From the NCBI RefSeq assembly GCF_001434665.1, contig NZ_AZDG01000019.1:1-50057 (forward strand): DNA of 50,057 nt, read 5' to 3'. Every line of letters begins with the position of its first letter. Position 1 is the first letter of the stretch. Below are positions 22,092 through 28,559 of the stretch, piece after piece. This DNA comes from Companilactobacillus tucceti DSM 20183 (GTDB lineage Bacteria > Bacillota > Bacilli > Lactobacillales > Lactobacillaceae). The position numbers and the translations under genes are program-made. Under the pieces are notes generated by a model. The model was given only the letters and a program-made list of their open reading frames with translations. It ran no database searches and was not told where the DNA came from.

Positions 22092-22280
22092 GATTTTCCC
22101 CCTTTGAATGATGTTTTCCTTATTATTATAGAACAGACATAATAATATCGCTGTGATTTAGTATTGTATTGTTACAAGAACCTCACAATTTCTTCACAAA
22201 TTATTATTTGTTTATTCGTAATTTGGAAATTAATTATTCATAATTGAAAGCTATTATTTAAGCATAGTCAAAAGCAAAGA

Positions 22281-22304
22281 AGAGGTGACCGGATGAAATA
22301 TTAA
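22281..22304 (+). other. Very short open frame with strong ribosome site (MKY)
   Basis: AGAGGTGA is followed by ATG AAA TAT TAA. Such a minimal frame behind a good ribosome site may be chance or a regulatory element. It lies just before the first C-loop hairpin. Confidence 0.25.
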
Positions 22305-22316
22305 ACTCTATATCAA

Positions 22317-22500
22317 GTTTTAATCCCCCTTAAAACAAGATAATGTTTTCTTAAAAACTCACTTATATAAACACAACAAAAATGATTAATCCCCTATAAA
22401 TTTAATCCCTAAAAAATCCTTATTTATTATTTAATCCCCCAATTAAATAATCCTAATAGGTTATATAAACGAAAATATATCCCCCCTGATATATATTTTC
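22317..22500 (+). ncRNA. C-loop hairpin array, first part, ending at a terminator
   Basis: Small AT-stem hairpins expose C-rich loops: GTTTTAA-TCCCCC-TTAAAAC (22317-22336), TTTAAT-CCCCCA-ATTAAA (22430-22447) and GAAAATATAT-CCCCCCTGAT-ATATATTTTC (22471-22500). Between them are further unpaired AATCCCC runs near 22387-22409. A strong terminator follows at once. On the plus strand the loops are complementary to Shine-Dalgarno sequences, as in C-rich-loop regulatory RNAs of Gram-positive bacteria. The transcribed strand is not decided by the sequence. Confidence 0.45.
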
Positions 22501-22541
22501 AAAAAAAGCAGGACCTACCCTCTACGGTAGATCCTGCTTTT
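22501..22541. terminator. Terminator within the C-loop array
   Basis: AAAAGCAGGA.CTACC, loop CTCTAC, GGTAG.TCCTGCTTTT. Seven A residues precede it and four T residues follow, so it reads better as a minus-strand terminator but can work on both strands. Confidence 0.8.
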
Positions 22542-22550
22542 ACTTATAAA

Positions 22551-22622
22551 TTTAATCCCTAATTAAATAATCCCCTGATATAAGAAGATTTACAATTTTA
22601 AAATATATCCTCCCTGATGTAT
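22551..22622 (+). ncRNA. C-loop hairpin array, second module
   Basis: TTTAAT-CCCTA-ATTAAA (22551-22567), then AATCCCCTG, then ATATAT-CCTCCCTG-ATGTAT (22603-22622, one wobble). The order and spacing match the modules at 22430-22500 and 22723-22789, so the three are diverged copies. Confidence 0.45.
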
Positions 22623-22655
22623 AAAAAATTGATTACAAGAATAAAATATAGAAAC

Positions 22656-22691
22656 TTGAGGTGAGTGATAGAGATATGAACAATCTCTAAA
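22656..22691 (+). other. Very short open frame with strong ribosome site (MNNL)
   Basis: TTGAGGTGA is followed, after 11 bases, by ATG AAC AAT CTC TAA. As at 22281, a GAGGTGA site and a frame of a few codons stand next to a C-loop module. Confidence 0.25.
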
Positions 22692-22722
22692 TAAATTTCT
22701 TCATAAATTAAAAGATCCCTTA

Positions 22723-22789
22723 TTTAATCCCCTAATTAAATAATCCCTTATATACAAATAAAATATATTTCCTCCCCAGATATATATTT
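22723..22789 (+). ncRNA. C-loop hairpin array, third module
   Basis: TTTAAT-CCCCTA-ATTAAA (22723-22740), TAATCCC, then AAATATAT-TTCCTCCCCAGAT-ATATATTT (22761-22789), followed by a terminator. The loop CCTCCCC is complementary to a GGGGAGG ribosome binding site. Confidence 0.45.
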
Positions 22790-22791
22790 AA

Positions 22792-22832
22792 AAAATGAGA
22801 CTGTGGTGTATTCCACAGTCTCATTTTGCATT
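22792..22832. terminator. Terminator beside repeat copy 2
   Basis: AAAATGAGACTGTGG, loop TGTATT, CCACAGTCTCATTTT: a perfect 15-bp stem. With six A residues in front it is a strong minus-strand terminator for the opp operon and a fair plus-strand one for the C-loop RNA. Confidence 0.85.
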
Positions 22833-22837
22833 TATAG

Positions 22838-22958
22838 CCTAAACGTGTAACAAAGGGCTGCAACCTCCACATAGCTACGAACCACAAATGATTGATGGTG
22901 CCAATCATTCGTGGTCCTAGGCTATGTTCCGGTGGCAGATTGCCCTTTGTCACACTCT
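22838..22958 (-). repeat. Dispersed 3'-UTR hairpin repeat, copy 2
   Basis: Read on the minus strand it starts three bases after the oppF stop codon as AAGAGTGTGACAAAGGGC and runs through ATCTGCCACCGGAACATAGCC to GGTTGCAGCCCTTTGTTACACGTTTAGGCTATAAA. It matches the copy at 11666-11798 along its whole length, with the same inverted-arm layout, and is likewise followed by a terminator. A minus open frame crossing it is a by-product of the repeat. Confidence 0.75.
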
Positions 22959-22961
22959 TGT

Positions 22962-23885
22962 CTATTTAAATGTAGCAGCTTTTTTGTCATCACAATACAA
23001 GAAATGACCTGGTAATACTTCTTGTAGCTTTTGTCCTTCATGGAAAGAGCTCTTATAATCAAAATCGATTCTTTGACGAGTTTTTTCAACTTCTGGATCA
23101 GGAACGGGAATAGCTGACAAGAGACTCTTTGTATATGGATGTAGCGGATGATCGTATATTTCATCGGCATCAGCCAATTCGACGATTTTACCATGGTACA
23201 TAACGGCGATTCTATCACTGATATATTTAACCATTGAAAGGTCATGGGCAATAAACATATAAGTTAATCCTTGTTCTTTTTGAATATCTTGCATCAAGTT
23301 AACAACTTGAGCTTGGATAGATACATCAAGTGCTGAAATAGGTTCATCAGCAATGATAAATTGAGGATCAACGGCTAGAGCTCTAGCAATACCAATACGT
23401 TGTCTTTGACCACCAGAGAATTCATAAGGGTAACGTGTCATATGTTCGGGGTTCAAATGAACCATATCTAGCAATTCACGAACACGTTTGTCACGCTCTT
23501 CATTACTACTTGTTAATCCATGGACATCAAGTCCTTCAGCAATAATATCCTTAACTTTCATTCTAGGATTTAGTGAAGCATATGGGTCTTGAAAGATCAT
23601 TTGCATTTCACGACGGAATTTTTTCATTTGTGGGCCATGACTTTTGATTTTACTAATATCTTGACCATTAAATAAAATTTGACCAGCTGTTGGATCATAA
23701 AGTCTGATGATACTACGACCAGTAGTACTCTTACCAGAACCAGATTCACCAACTAATCCAAATGTTTCTCCTTTATATATATCAAAGGAAACGTCATCGA
23801 CAGCTTTTACTTCGTTAGGTTTACCAATATTAAAATATTGTTTTAAATGTTTGACTTGGACAATTGCTTGTTTATCTTCTGCCAT
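22962..23885 (-). CDS. oppF: Oligopeptide ABC transporter ATPase OppF
   Basis: 307 residues. Walker A GESGSGKST (near 40), signature FSGGQRQRIGIARAL (near 150) and Walker B FIIADEPISALD are intact, and the C-terminal HPLHPYTKSLLSAIPVPDP is the oligopeptide/dipeptide extension. With OppD it energises peptide import through OppBC. The ATG overlaps the oppD stop (TAATG). Last gene of the operon, followed by repeat copy 2 and a terminator. Confidence 0.95.
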   Translation of the reverse strand: MAEDKQAIVQVKHLKQYFNIGKPNEVKAVDDVSFDIYKGETFGLVGESGSGKSTTGRSIIRLYDPTAGQILFNGQDISKIKSHGPQMKKFRREMQMIFQDPYASLNPRMKVKDIIAEGLDVHGLTSSNEERDKRVRELLDMVHLNPEHMTRYPYEFSGGQRQRIGIARALAVDPQFIIADEPISALDVSIQAQVVNLMQDIQKEQGLTYMFIAHDLSMVKYISDRIAVMYHGKIVELADADEIYDHPLHPYTKSLLSAIPVPDPEVEKTRQRIDFDYKSSFHEGQKLQEVLPGHFLYCDDKKAATFK

Positions 23886-24928
23886 TATATATTGTCTCCT
23901 AACTTTTTAAATTTGGTGAAACGTTTCTGAATTCCCTTAGGAGGAGTAACTTTTGGTGCATCTGGGTGCAATAGCCACGTTGCAGCATAATGAGTCTTGG
24001 AAACTTTAAAGAAAGGAGGTTGCTCTTCCAAATCTATTTGCATGGCGTATTCGTTACGTGGTGCAAAAGCGTCACCTTTAGGAGGATTTAACAAGTTAGG
24101 AGGTGTACCTGGGATTGAATTAAGGTGGTCCTCTTCACTTGTATCTAAAGTAGGCATGGAATCTAATAATCCCCAAGTATAGGGATGTTGAGGATCATAG
24201 AAGATTTCATCTACTGAACCGTATTCAACAAATTTACCGGCATACATAACGGCTACACGATCAGCAATACCAGCCACGACACCAAGATCATGGGTGATAA
24301 AGATGATAGAAGTACCGATTTTTTGTTGTAACTCTTTTAATAAATCGATAATTTGAGCTTGAACAGTAACGTCCAAAGCAGTTGTTGGTTCATCGGCAAT
24401 AAGAATTTCAGGATAGTCTACGATAGCAATCGCGATAACGATACGTTGTCTTTGACCACCAGAGAATTGATGAGGATAGTCATTCATTCTCTCTTTAGGA
24501 TTAGGTATACCGACTAAACGTAAAACTTCTTCGGCACGACCAAGTGCTTCTTTTTTGGAAACTTTATTGTGGATCAAAAGTGGTTCAGCAACTTGTTTTC
24601 CAATTGTCATTGTTGGATCAAGGGATGTCATAGGATCTTGGAAAATCATTGAAATTTTATTTCCACGGATAGCATCCATTTCTTTTTTGCTTTTTTTAAG
24701 TAGATCTTCTCCATGATAGAGGATAGTACCTTTATTTATATCAGCGTTTTTTGCAAGTAACTGCAAGATTGAACGAACAGTGATCGACTTACCAGAACCA
24801 GATTCCCCAACGATAGCTAAGGTTTCACCGGCGGAAAGATCGAAATTCACTCCTCGAATAGCTTGGACAGTACCATTGTAGGTAGCAAAGTTAACGTGTA
24901 GATCTTTTACTTCTAGAATTTTATCCAT
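23885..24928 (-). CDS. oppD: Oligopeptide ABC transporter ATPase OppD
   Basis: 347 residues. Walker A GESGSGKSI, signature FSGGQRQRIVIAIAI and Walker B ILIADEPTTALD are present, and the C-terminal oligopeptide-transporter domain has PQHPYTWGLLDSMP and PGTPPNLLNPPKGDAFAPR. The cysteine cluster seen in the tails of some OppD proteins is absent here. It follows oppC by 23 bases and overlaps oppF. Confidence 0.95.
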   Translation of the reverse strand: MDKILEVKDLHVNFATYNGTVQAIRGVNFDLSAGETLAIVGESGSGKSITVRSILQLLAKNADINKGTILYHGEDLLKKSKKEMDAIRGNKISMIFQDPMTSLDPTMTIGKQVAEPLLIHNKVSKKEALGRAEEVLRLVGIPNPKERMNDYPHQFSGGQRQRIVIAIAIVDYPEILIADEPTTALDVTVQAQIIDLLKELQQKIGTSIIFITHDLGVVAGIADRVAVMYAGKFVEYGSVDEIFYDPQHPYTWGLLDSMPTLDTSEEDHLNSIPGTPPNLLNPPKGDAFAPRNEYAMQIDLEEQPPFFKVSKTHYAATWLLHPDAPKVTPPKGIQKRFTKFKKLGDNI

Positions 24929-24951
24929 TGCTTATTCTTTCTCCTTAGTTA

Positions 24952-25971
24952 TTAGTCTGATGATTGTGGGTCAAAGGCGTCACGTAGACCATCACCTAGT
25001 AAGTTAGTAGCAATCATAATAATACTTAAGATAATTGCAGGTGCCCACATTTGATATGGTAAGAATCTAAAGGCTTTTTGTCCATCAGATAATAGTGTAC
25101 CTAATGATGCATTTGGTGCAGGGATACCAATACCAATGAAACTTAAGAAGGCTTCAAAGAAAATAGCATTTGGAATTGTAAACATTGTTTGAATGATAAT
25201 TGTTGAAGATAGGTTAGGAATCAAGTGTTTTGTAGCAATTTTAGTTGAAGATTCTCCTAAAGTACGTGCTGCCAAAACATATTCTTGCTCTTTTAATTGG
25301 AAGGTTTGAGCACGAATCAGACGAGCCATTGTGACCCAATCAGTAATAGCGATGGCTAAAACAATTGAGATCAATCCTGGCTTTAAAATAATCATCATTA
25401 AGATAACAACGATTAGGTTAGGAACTGAAGAAACGATTTCAACGATACGTTGCATAACGTTATCTGTCATTCCGCCTTTCCAACCTGAGACGATACCGTA
25501 AGGGATACCGATCAATAAATCTACCAAAGTAGCCAAAACAGCAACTATTAGAGAAAGACGAGTACCATAGATAATTCTTGATAATAAATCACGTCCAAGA
25601 TAATCAGTACCTAAGATGTAGTAAGTACCTTTTGGAGCATGAACTTGTTGATAAGCATCAACCATCTTGCCACCCATATTTTGGTAACCGTTGAATCCAG
25701 GGATATTTAGATTACCTAATTTTGGAGGAAGGTTAGATAGGGTAGCATGTTGAGCATTTGGATTATATGGTGCAATTATTGGGGCAAAGACAGAGATAAG
25801 AACAATTAGTGAAAGTAGTGTTAAACAAACAACAGCAACTTTATTTTGAAAAAGACGACGACGGACATCTTGCATGTAAGTTAAAGAAGGTGTGCCGATT
25901 TTTTCTTGTTCCTTATTACCCTCATTATTTAAAAATTTAAATTTATCCTTGGGTATTTGAGGAATTTCCAT
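24952..25971 (-). CDS. oppC: Oligopeptide ABC transporter permease OppC
   Basis: 339 residues with six membrane segments. After the first (near residue 45) there is a long outward loop of about 80 residues (NPNAQHATLSNLPPKL...), then GTDYLGRDLLSRIIYGTRLS, the usual DppC/OppC start of the permease domain. The ATPase-contact EAA loop (AARTLGESSTKIATKHLIPN) is intact. The ATG overlaps the oppB stop. Confidence 0.94.
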   Translation of the reverse strand: MEIPQIPKDKFKFLNNEGNKEQEKIGTPSLTYMQDVRRRLFQNKVAVVCLTLLSLIVLISVFAPIIAPYNPNAQHATLSNLPPKLGNLNIPGFNGYQNMGGKMVDAYQQVHAPKGTYYILGTDYLGRDLLSRIIYGTRLSLIVAVLATLVDLLIGIPYGIVSGWKGGMTDNVMQRIVEIVSSVPNLIVVILMMIILKPGLISIVLAIAITDWVTMARLIRAQTFQLKEQEYVLAARTLGESSTKIATKHLIPNLSSTIIIQTMFTIPNAIFFEAFLSFIGIGIPAPNASLGTLLSDGQKAFRFLPYQMWAPAIILSIIMIATNLLGDGLRDAFDPQSSD

Positions 25972-26903
25972 TATTCATTACCTCCGTTTCCTAATCTAAT
26001 TCTTGGATCAATAAGTACGTATAAAATATCAACAACTAAGAAGACTAAAATCAATAAGAATGAATAGAAGATAGTTAGTCCCATGATAGTTGGGTAGTCA
26101 TTAGTAGTAATTGATTTAACAAATTGTTCACCGATACCAGGAATCGAGAAAATGTTCTCAACAACCATTGAACCAGTCATAGTTGATACGGCCATAGGTC
26201 CAATAATAGTAACAATAGGAATCAATGAATTACGTAAAGCGTGTTTAACAACTACTTGCCATTCTGAATTACCTTTTGATTTAGCGAGTTCAATGTAGTC
26301 ACTACTTAACACGTCGACCATTTCAGTTCTCATAAATCTGGCGACATTACCCAAAGGTAACGCAGCTAAAGCGATAGTAGGTAGGACGCTTGATTGGAAG
26401 TTGTCCCAAAGAGCAACTGGATAGATGTGCCATTTGTAGGCCAAGTAAAATTGTAATAAAACAGCCAAAACAAATGATGGGATTGAAATACCTAGAATTG
26501 ATACGAATGTTGCCAAAGTATCGACCCAAGTATTTTTTCTAATGGCAGCGATGGCACCAAGTAAGATACCTAAAATAGTACCAAGTATCATTGCTTGAGC
26601 ACCAATTTGCATTGATGGTGCTAAACGTTGGCCGATTAGTTGTGTAACAGGTTCATTGTTAAATTGGAATGAAGTTCCAAGATTTCCTTGGAAAAGTCCA
26701 CCTATATAACGAATATATTGAATTAATATTGGTTGATCCAATCCATATTGTGCTTTAACGATTGCTAATTGTTCTGGTGATAGACGATTCTGATTAGAGA
26801 ATGGAGTACCAGGAAGCATCTTCATTAGAAAGAAAGTGATCGTAGCAATTATGAAGAGGGTCAAAAATAGGTAAAGAATTCTTTTAAGAATATATTTTGC
26901 CAT
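25971..26903 (-). CDS. oppB: Oligopeptide ABC transporter permease OppB
   Basis: 310 residues, six membrane segments. The N-terminal KYILKRILYLFLTLFIIATITFFLMKMLPG and the coupling loop IELAKSKGNSEWQVVVKHALRNSLIP are typical of OppB/DppB. It lies 21 bases after oppA. The partner permease is OppC. Confidence 0.95.
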   Translation of the reverse strand: MAKYILKRILYLFLTLFIIATITFFLMKMLPGTPFSNQNRLSPEQLAIVKAQYGLDQPILIQYIRYIGGLFQGNLGTSFQFNNEPVTQLIGQRLAPSMQIGAQAMILGTILGILLGAIAAIRKNTWVDTLATFVSILGISIPSFVLAVLLQFYLAYKWHIYPVALWDNFQSSVLPTIALAALPLGNVARFMRTEMVDVLSSDYIELAKSKGNSEWQVVVKHALRNSLIPIVTIIGPMAVSTMTGSMVVENIFSIPGIGEQFVKSITTNDYPTIMGLTIFYSFLLILVFLVVDILYVLIDPRIRLGNGGNE

Positions 26904-26924
26904 ATTTAATCTCCCTAACTTTAA

Positions 26925-28559
26925 TTATTTTTTATAAGCAGTAACGAGGTTATAACCGCCATTTGGTGAAATACGATAGTTTCTGACATTAGATTTAGTC
27001 AAGTTAGCTTGATTCAATTGATAAAGAACAACAGCACCTTGATCTTCAGTTAAGATCTTAGTTGCTTCAAGCATATCTTGCCATCTAGCATCTTCATCAT
27101 TAGCATCAGTAGTCTTACTCTTTTTAACTAAAGCATCATAGGCTTTATTAGAGTACTTACCATCATTGATCGAACTGTCAGTTGTGAAGCAATCTAAGAA
27201 ACTGATTGGATCTGGGAAGTCGGCTGTCCAAGCTGAAACAACCATATCGAAGTCACCGCTGATAGATTTATCCAAACGTGATTTAAATGGGACATTTTGT
27301 AAGGAAATCTTTAATCCAGGTAATGTCTTCATCATTTGACCTTGAATAAATTCATTTTGTTTCTTAGCGGCGTCAGTATCATCACCTAAAATAGTAAAGC
27401 TGAGATCTTTTTGACCAGTTTCTTTTAGTCCTTCTTTCCAAAGTTTCTTGGCAAGTTTAGGATTGTATTCTGAGTACTTGTTTACTGAATCTAAGGTCTT
27501 TTCTTTAGTAAAGTCTGTACCAGTCTTAGGATTATAAGACATCTTTGTAGGAACTAATGTATCTTCAATACCACCAGTTTTACCTAGGATATTGTCAGTT
27601 AGTTGTTCACGATCGATCGACATTGAAATTGCTTGTCTGATCTTTTTATTTCTAAAGAATTTATATTTCTTTTGATTTAGTTCCAAGTAGTAGTTACTTG
27701 CTGTTTCTGAGATACTGAATGATTTGTAACCTGAAACTTGGCGAGCAGTATCACCACTGATTTGTTGAAGACGGTTAATTCTGTTTGTATCGTAAAGATT
27801 CAATCCAGTATTAGCATCTTTAACAACGTAATATTCGACTTTGTTTAATCTAACTTTTTTAGCATTCCAGTATTTATTATTTTTAACTTCAGTCCAGTTA
27901 TTATCAGAAACATTCCAATTAGTTAATTTAAATGGACCATTGAACACCATACCAGCACTCTTTAAACCATATTGTTTACCGGCTTTTTCTACAGCTGGTT
28001 TATATAATGGTAGAAATGGTGAATTTACAACTAAAGCGTTGAAGTATGGAATTGGTGTATCTAAGTCAATTTGAAGTTTGTATTTATTAAGAGCTTTGAT
28101 CCCCAATGTATTAACTGGTTTTTTACCAGCGCTGATTTTATCAGCATTTTTTATTCCACTATAAATGTAGGCATATTCAGAAGCTGTCTTTGGATCGACA
28201 GTTCTACGCCATGCGTAAACGAAATCCTGAGCCGTTACGGGTTTACCGTTGGACCATTTAGTATGTCGTAGTTCAATCGTATAGGTTTTACCGTTATTTG
28301 TAGGTTTGACGATTTTTTTAGCAACAGCTGGTTGCAATTTTTTACCATCAAATCGGTATAAACCTTCCATTGTATTGGAAAGATTTTGCGAACCGATAAC
28401 ATCGGTATTCATTGATGAGTCCATAGTTGCGATTACATCACTAGAACTGATAGAAAGAGTTTTTTTATCATCTTTTTCAGTATTAGAACCGCAGCCAGAC
28501 AAAATCAGCGCTATCGCAAAAATCGGAAATAGTGCTAACAAATACTTTTTAAATTTCAT
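26925..28559 (-). CDS. oppA: Oligopeptide-binding lipoprotein OppA
   Basis: 544 residues. A lipoprotein signal peptide ends in LSGC (lipobox, Cys23), then a solute-binding domain of family 5 (RHTKWSNGKPVTAQDFVYAWRRTVDPKT near 105). It captures peptides outside the membrane and hands them to OppBC. First gene of oppABCDF. GGGAGG stands before the ATG, and TTGTAT...TACTCT about 60 bases upstream may be the promoter. Confidence 0.95.
   Translation of the reverse strand: MKFKKYLLALFPIFAIALILSGCGSNTEKDDKKTLSISSSDVIATMDSSMNTDVIGSQNLSNTMEGLYRFDGKKLQPAVAKKIVKPTNNGKTYTIELRHTKWSNGKPVTAQDFVYAWRRTVDPKTASEYAYIYSGIKNADKISAGKKPVNTLGIKALNKYKLQIDLDTPIPYFNALVVNSPFLPLYKPAVEKAGKQYGLKSAGMVFNGPFKLTNWNVSDNNWTEVKNNKYWNAKKVRLNKVEYYVVKDANTGLNLYDTNRINRLQQISGDTARQVSGYKSFSISETASNYYLELNQKKYKFFRNKKIRQAISMSIDREQLTDNILGKTGGIEDTLVPTKMSYNPKTGTDFTKEKTLDSVNKYSEYNPKLAKKLWKEGLKETGQKDLSFTILGDDTDAAKKQNEFIQGQMMKTLPGLKISLQNVPFKSRLDKSISGDFDMVVSAWTADFPDPISFLDCFTTDSSINDGKYSNKAYDALVKKSKTTDANDEDARWQDMLEATKILTEDQGAVVLYQLNQANLTKSNVRNYRISPNGGYNLVTAYKK

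Follow-up and report, generated by a model that had tools for sequence, protein, structure and literature searches.

A tandem array of C-loop hairpins beside the opp operon of Companilactobacillus tucceti and the putative anti-Shine-Dalgarno RNA family to which it appears to belong

The hairpin array

The window, the whole 50,057-nucleotide stretch of the Companilactobacillus tucceti genome that was analysed, carries an array of small hairpins with C-rich loops on which the opp operon (oppF, D, C, B and A, so named from a reading of the open reading frames (ORFs); 22962-28559, - strand) converges. The original prediction, made from the letters alone, placed seven such hairpins at 22317-22789, and all seven are found, on the + strand. 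As judged by sequence comparison, the array is a repeated gene made up of boxes, promoter, leader, hairpins and terminator, the first copy of which alone keeps its promoter in C. tucceti, and it belongs to what appears to be an uncatalogued Companilactobacillus small RNA family.

Unit 1 opens with direct repeats in an 11-bp phase (CTCACAA at 22182, TTCACAA at 22193, TTCGTAA at 22215 and TTCATAA at 22237, spanning 22182-22247 on the + strand) that are probably response-regulator boxes; OmpR-family response regulators commonly bind direct repeats of such layout. A -10 element, TATTAT, lies at 22252-22257 (+), nine bases past the last TTCATA, and the transcript would start at about 22263-22266. 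A conserved 5' leader on the + strand, CATAGTCAA...GAGGTGACCGGATG (22263-22295), includes an extended Shine-Dalgarno (SD) sequence at 22282-22288 and runs into a three-codon minigene, M-K-Y-stop (22293-22304, +). Beyond it on the same strand lie hairpin 1 with the loop UCCCCC (22317-22336; fold and C-tract stem scoring), further C-tracts AAUCCCCUAUAAAUUUAAUCCC that are largely single-stranded when folded (22384-22409), a hairpin of the TTTAAT/ATTAAA type with the loop CCCCCA (22426-22451), one of the ATAT/ATAT type with the loop CCCCCCUGAU (22471-22500; both from repeats, fold and stem scoring), and a terminator-like hairpin (22504-22541; repeats, fold and relatives).

Unit 2, delimited by alignment with three close relatives, is a remnant without boxes or promoter (22546-22650, +), in which C-tract stem scoring places hairpins with the loops CCCTA (22550-22568) and CCTCCCTG (22602-22622). 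Unit 3 retains a leader remnant, recognised by alignment (22658-22690, +), with the SD GAGGTGA at 22658-22664 and a tiny ORF, MNNL, at 22676-22690; its boxes and -10 element, kept in relatives, are gone. Folds of its + strand give one hairpin with the loop CCCCUA (22720-22743) and one whose loop contains CCUCCCC (22761-22789). A terminal terminator-like hairpin at 22792-22827, seen in repeats and folds, is left without a strand assignment: because its longer T-run is on the - strand, the opp transcript may end there as well.

The seven C-rich loops of the original prediction are thus all present, but the array holds more C-tracts than seven, some of them mostly single-stranded, as at 22384-22409. 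Its two "strong terminators" exist as hairpins (22504-22541 and 22792-22827) but show no more than TTTT on the + strand, the longer T-runs being on the - strand, and neither was flagged by a simple terminator scan of the window; after unit 1 the + strand T-run is longer in two of the three close relatives. That the modules are diverged tandem copies agrees with direct-repeat families D1, D2 and D4-D6. On the + strand, unit 1 (22280-22545) folds with a z-score of -6.14, which 0 of 200 shuffles equal, and with -4.95 (again 0 of 200) when taken without its terminator (22300-22503). Units 2-3 give -5.55 (22545-22850; 0 of 100 shuffles) and, without the terminator (22545-22791), a weak -1.92 that 10 of 200 shuffles equal.

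Long units and compact RNAs in the genus

Of 36 Companilactobacillus genomes, 33 contain matches to the array; of the 24 other genomes searched, none does. In three close relatives the three modules of the window align to three successive units, each with promoter and leader; the modules are therefore read as tandem gene copies, only the first of which looks complete here, and units 2 and 3, promoterless in the window, have their promoters in those three relatives. The tandem hairpins of the original prediction are borne out in this way; what it missed is that a gene is being repeated, that promoters have been lost, and that compact RNAs lie elsewhere in the genome.

The best-kept segment of the long units is the leader TTCATAATTnnnCGTTATTATTTAAGCATAGTCAA...GAGGTGACCGGATG, present in up to four copies in the regions displayed, and most of the long units displayed share the 11-bp phase of the boxes; a similar layout is found upstream of the compact RNAs. 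GAGGTGA is exact in 68 of 76 leader-bearing long units and is followed within nine bases by an ATG in 64 of these 68. The resulting ORFs run to 2-22 codons (median 6, against 8 in shuffles), with three codons or fewer in 27 of 64 (18% in shuffles), and no peptide is shared across them. Because the SD is kept without a kept product, it suggests a stabiliser or a ribosome dock. In the cry3A mRNA of Bacillus a strong SD near the 5' end, the STAB-SD, stabilises without being translated; the long units resemble it in having a strong SD near the 5' end, which may act likewise.

Some long units (for example L193-8794, L197+4684 and L050+10216) have tail variants GAAGAAAAGCTTATGAAAAATACAAATACAAAAAGAGCT before the terminator that resemble a second SD and start codon, with no conserved ORF. 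Elsewhere, the gene of a 33-amino-acid protein, MKKHPFLVLTSLSAVAAVCGKLIKSHNDKKLFN (G000:C34:120418-120498; L052, L187; homologues L089, L091, L092 and L094), combines the CATAGTCAA leader with a similar promoter, and for that reason probably belongs to the same regulon; the protein is probably membrane-anchored and has no NCBIfam match. A further RNA type, with the C-tracts CTCCCTGAT and CTTCCCCCCTGATA, stands behind a like promoter in three genomes (L186 at G000:C49:48066-48108, L188 and L189).

A search of the C. tucceti genome for paired boxes yielded three compact RNA genes of 100-112 nt with the same promoter, at G000:C23, and in the genus regions this promoter leads to RNAs mostly of 100-117 nt and at most 146. 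A model search finds two to three copies in each of seven genus members; the finder pattern, which required C-runs and a T-run, finds one to four per region. The compact plan comprises a first hairpin, CCCCCCTATAACA, TTTAATCCCC and a terminator with CCCC, mostly UCCCC, in its loop; in folds the first C-rich site is adjacent to the first loop, not within it, and CCCCCCTATAACA and TTTAATCCCC are mostly unpaired. The three C. tucceti RNAs fold with z-scores of -4.53, -6.71 and -7.15. Among 50 distinct compact RNAs the 7-bp helix that closes the terminator loop occurs in 30 versions, and GAGGTGA in none (0/50). With two mismatches allowed, the two-box promoter pattern did not exceed its control in the C. 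tucceti genome (10 matches against 12, the control not being broken down by mismatch); two of the matches were exact.

In the long class the stems vary around a constant UCCCC, as in GAACTAT/GTAGTTC, GAGCTAT/GTAGCTC and GAGTTAT/GTAACTC. In the compact terminator stem, scored in 36 of the 50 RNAs, 91.9% of cells are paired as against 78.6% in shuffles, 57 cells are double-changed as against 16.0, and the covariation score is 0.534 as against 0.264 for shuffled and at most 0.231 for slid alignments. This covariation is strong and is not a product of the finder pattern. For the long class, 336 C-tracts were scored, terminator tracts included, around 79 leader hits (a few of them false) at 33 loci; the enclosing stem scores at least 8 in 22.3%, and in 2.5% when the flanks are shuffled. 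Both results uphold the original claim that C-rich loops are kept on changing paired stems; stems not preserved by compensatory changes in related genomes were to speak against it, and in the relatives the stems covary.

A candidate regulator and a second genus

R1, a covariance model of the compact RNAs, matches 7 of 395 Lactobacillales genomes (388 of the sample lying outside the genus), all seven of them Companilactobacillus; no long unit of the window was listed in that search. The triple-box promoter pattern occurs in 20 of the 395 genomes, 13 of them outside the genus, and its backward control in one. Five of these 13 matches, all in one genus, lie directly upstream of the gene of an OmpR-type regulator. 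The five proteins are 56-58% identical to L206 of C. tucceti, as against 27-41% for its seven other regulators, and the L206 segment ERTVDAHIKKLRQKIE, which would hold the recognition helix in this fold, recurs unchanged in three of the five, the other two each having a single residue different. An ORF resembling a histidine kinase follows L206. Since the promoter pattern precedes these relatives of it in another genus, L206 is the best candidate regulator, and would be expected to bind the boxes in Companilactobacillus. An NCBIfam scan of five of the eight C. tucceti regulators gave none at cut-off among the matches listed, the best for L206 being PieR at 290 bits against a required 450.

Two other regulatory schemes were tried and rejected. 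For autoregulation by C. tucceti's own OmpR-type regulators, the eight loci have best promoter scores of 15.8-19.5, as against 20.0-23.5 for the compact promoters, and the top one, L210 at 19.5, has no recognisable boxes. A Pho regulon was suggested by the likeness of the boxes to the PhoP consensus, but the region upstream of one pstS-like gene (L124), inspected by eye, has no boxes. A search for CroR gave nothing useful. Separately, L279 (G231) has the box pattern, with two mismatches, before a lipoprotein gene whose product looks like a PrsA-type foldase, which hints at envelope stress.

Behind another of the 13 promoter matches, in a second genus of the Lactobacillaceae, stands an RNA that has C-rich sites and ends in a terminator. 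It has a sequence match in 6 of 7 genomes of that genus, with boxes before all five copies displayed. As far as sequence goes it shares the plan rather than a proven kinship, common descent being unproven because R1 does not detect it.

Candidate targets

The gene oppA, whose start at 28559 (- strand) is preceded by the SD TTTAGGGAGG, is a candidate target. This SD is TTTAGGGAGG in 29 of 29 genomes read, with varying bases before and after it, and, by distances from hand-listed positions, 28 of the 33 genomes that have both on one contig carry a long unit no more than 8 kb from the start of oppA. Among 39 start regions of the window, it is oppA for which the array loops give the strongest duplex by prediction (-17.8 kcal/mol, z -2.84). 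In the same set the compact segments put oppB fourth by energy and lowest by z (-3.07).

Relation to known RNAs

Excerpts of published accounts describe two groups of RNAs of related design. LhrC1-5 of Listeria monocytogenes are there said to exist in several copies, to depend on a two-component response regulator and to have three CU-rich sites, in loop A, in a single-stranded stretch and in the terminator loop (PMC5880928, PMC4132741); LhrC represses oppA and pairs with SD regions (PMC5880928). Streptococcal genomes each hold several similar csRNAs, which belong to the CiaRH regulon and have anti-SD stretches; the CiaR repeat TTTAAG-N5-TTTAAG was looked for ten bases upstream of their -10 elements, and CiaRH is stated not to occur outside streptococci (PMC3091779).

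With LhrC, as the excerpts portray it, the C. tucceti RNAs share the presence of several copies per genome (three compact ones here) and a compact class with three C-rich sites that include a single strand and a terminator loop. LhrC has oppA among its targets, and here oppA is predicted to be one; LhrC depends on a regulator, and here there are regulator-type boxes and a candidate of the L206 type. The LisR boxes are not comparable, no LisR consensus being known in 2014 according to the excerpt (PMC4132741). The differences are that Rfam scans at E up to 1 gave no LhrC match for the family and that there is here a long class with an SD leader and many C-hairpins. With the csRNAs, as excerpted, the shared features are a direct repeat of 11-bp period, nine bases before the -10 element here and about ten in csRNAs, and anti-SD stretches, here CCCCCCTATAACA and TTTAATCCCC, that are largely unpaired in compact folds. 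In contrast, the boxes here are TTCAYA-like and not NTTAAG-N5-TTTAAG, and the C-rich sites lie also in hairpin and terminator loops; pairing with translation starts is here a prediction. On these comparisons LhrC and the csRNAs are the closest working analogues found, and membership in either fails on the model or on the boxes.

Rfam gave no family match at gathering score and only sub-cut-off matches at E up to 1; its lists held no csRNA-named family, and two other streptococcal small RNA families (E 0.35 and 0.5) came nowhere near their cut-offs. A search of open-licence PMC papers in general terms gave no description of such RNAs in lactobacilli among the papers listed, so that "undescribed", as the original prediction had it, fits, and the likeness it proposed to C-rich regulatory RNAs that bind SDs is supported. 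What emerges is a putative genus-wide RNA family for which a promoter signature can be given along with a candidate regulator and candidate targets: an LhrC- and csRNA-like plan in different sequence and with different boxes, together with a long tandem format that the excerpts do not describe for those families.

Interpretation

We think it probable that these are regulator-induced anti-SD RNAs, like LhrC and the csRNAs without belonging to either, with unit 1 as a gene and units 2-3 as promoterless copies. The reading builds on the family, the promoter layout, the covarying stems with C-rich loops, the tandem copies and the promoter loss, all of them read from sequence. From unit 1 (about 22182-22541) a regulatory RNA of ~280 nt would be transcribed on the + strand; the tandem copies, units 2 and 3, have lost their promoters in C. 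tucceti. On a presumed signal, an OmpR-type response regulator, for which L206 is proposed, would bind the phased TTCAYA-like boxes and switch on transcription of the long RNA together with that of the ~100-nt compact RNAs elsewhere in the genome. By pairing with G-rich SDs of their target mRNAs, the C-rich loops, which lie exposed, would then keep ribosomes from binding; the favoured candidates are oppA and oppB, which belong to the peptide transporter next to the array. The SD near the 5' end, whose minigene has no meaning of its own, probably retains a ribosomal subunit at that end and shields the RNA from 5' decay.

Several observations weigh against this interpretation. The - strand of 22280-22850 also folds well (z -5.14, equalled by 0 of 100 shuffles), so that folding alone cannot choose the strand, which was assigned on other evidence; the window's own terminators have short T-runs on the + strand; and a generic sigma-70 scan found no excess of promoters (7, with 10.0 expected). 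The constancy of the compact loops is partly built in by the C-runs that the finder required, and two of five covariation measures lie near the shuffles (double-change pairs as high in 34 of 500, pair types in 180 of 500). The gene of L206 has no full box set upstream, 7 of the 13 promoter matches outside the genus have no regulator gene and no RNA of this type behind them, and R1 missed the RNA of the second genus though its genome, G404, was in the sample. As for targets, G-rich SDs are common and duplex scores are weak evidence; over 39 crude starts the mean z is -0.32 for the array loops and -0.65 for the compact segments, and the best-scoring loop for oppA belongs to promoterless unit 2. 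Because of these weak means and the position of that loop, oppA and oppB are only suggested as targets. The yagU-like gene was rejected as a target in cis (duplex z 0.24; a long G-run SD in only part of the relatives).

The family and its regulator might be as proposed and the C-loops nevertheless work not on specific mRNAs but as a sponge that takes up ribosomes, an RNA-binding protein or other RNAs. The many similar C-tracts of each long RNA, the strong SD within the same molecule and the low specificity of the predicted duplexes would suit such a role, which we consider unlikely given that the compact RNAs keep three C-rich sites, like the target-pairing LhrC of the excerpted accounts (PMC5880928, PMC4132741). 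Expression of a tiny peptide, from small-protein or dual-function genes, would account for the frequency of GAGGTGA (68/76) and of the ATG after it (64/68), for the excess of ORFs of three codons or fewer (27/64), and for the shared promoter layout and CATAGTCAA leader of the 33-amino-acid protein gene; with ORFs of 2-22 codons that have no peptide in common, and no GAGGTGA in the 50 compact RNAs, it is improbable. A spreading repeat element of MITE or REP type, its hairpins incidental, would likewise be tandem, AT-rich and multicopy with decayed copies. Such an element is hard to reconcile with the fact that 28 of 33 genomes have a copy no more than 8 kb from the start of oppA, with boxes, -10 element and leader in fixed order in the units, or with stems that covary around C-rich loops; moreover, the 21-nt core has no exact match in viral contigs and a compact unit has no match in plasmids, and we judge this origin very improbable. 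Hardly credible, finally, is a functional - strand, whose G-rich loops with GGA would hold a protein in the manner of a CsrA sponge or form part of the opp 3' end: its longer T-runs after the hairpins and its good fold are set against boxes, -10 element and leader that indicate the + strand, and against compact RNAs that end in a + strand T-run (one that the finder required). The CsrA-type sponge was dropped on this strand evidence.

Around the favoured reading of regulator-induced anti-SD RNAs a wider and decidedly tentative scheme can be drawn. The family would span at least two Lactobacillaceae genera, with one regulator and two anti-SD formats, compact three-site RNAs and long C-loop combs that arise by tandem duplication and loss beside opp, each with a stabilising 5' ribosome-docking minigene. 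Under envelope stress it might shut off peptide uptake and other genes with G-rich SDs, and do so without Hfq. Lactobacilli are said to lack Hfq in an excerpted account (PMC4132741).

Three minor observations remain. L063, on a contig labelled Furfurilactobacillus milii, has a partial leader, and the 30 bases before its yagU-like gene are identical to those of C. paralimentarius (L057), through either contamination or transfer. A T-box-like leader (L119:1306-1476, - strand; 55.2 bits, E 1.2e-9, cut-off 93) adjoins compact RNA genes and stands before an ORF resembling an amino-acid permease; the match lies outside the RNA family and looks genuine. In the window itself, two nested pairs of inverted-repeat arms (I1 and I8) lie at 22845-22955, between the array and oppF.
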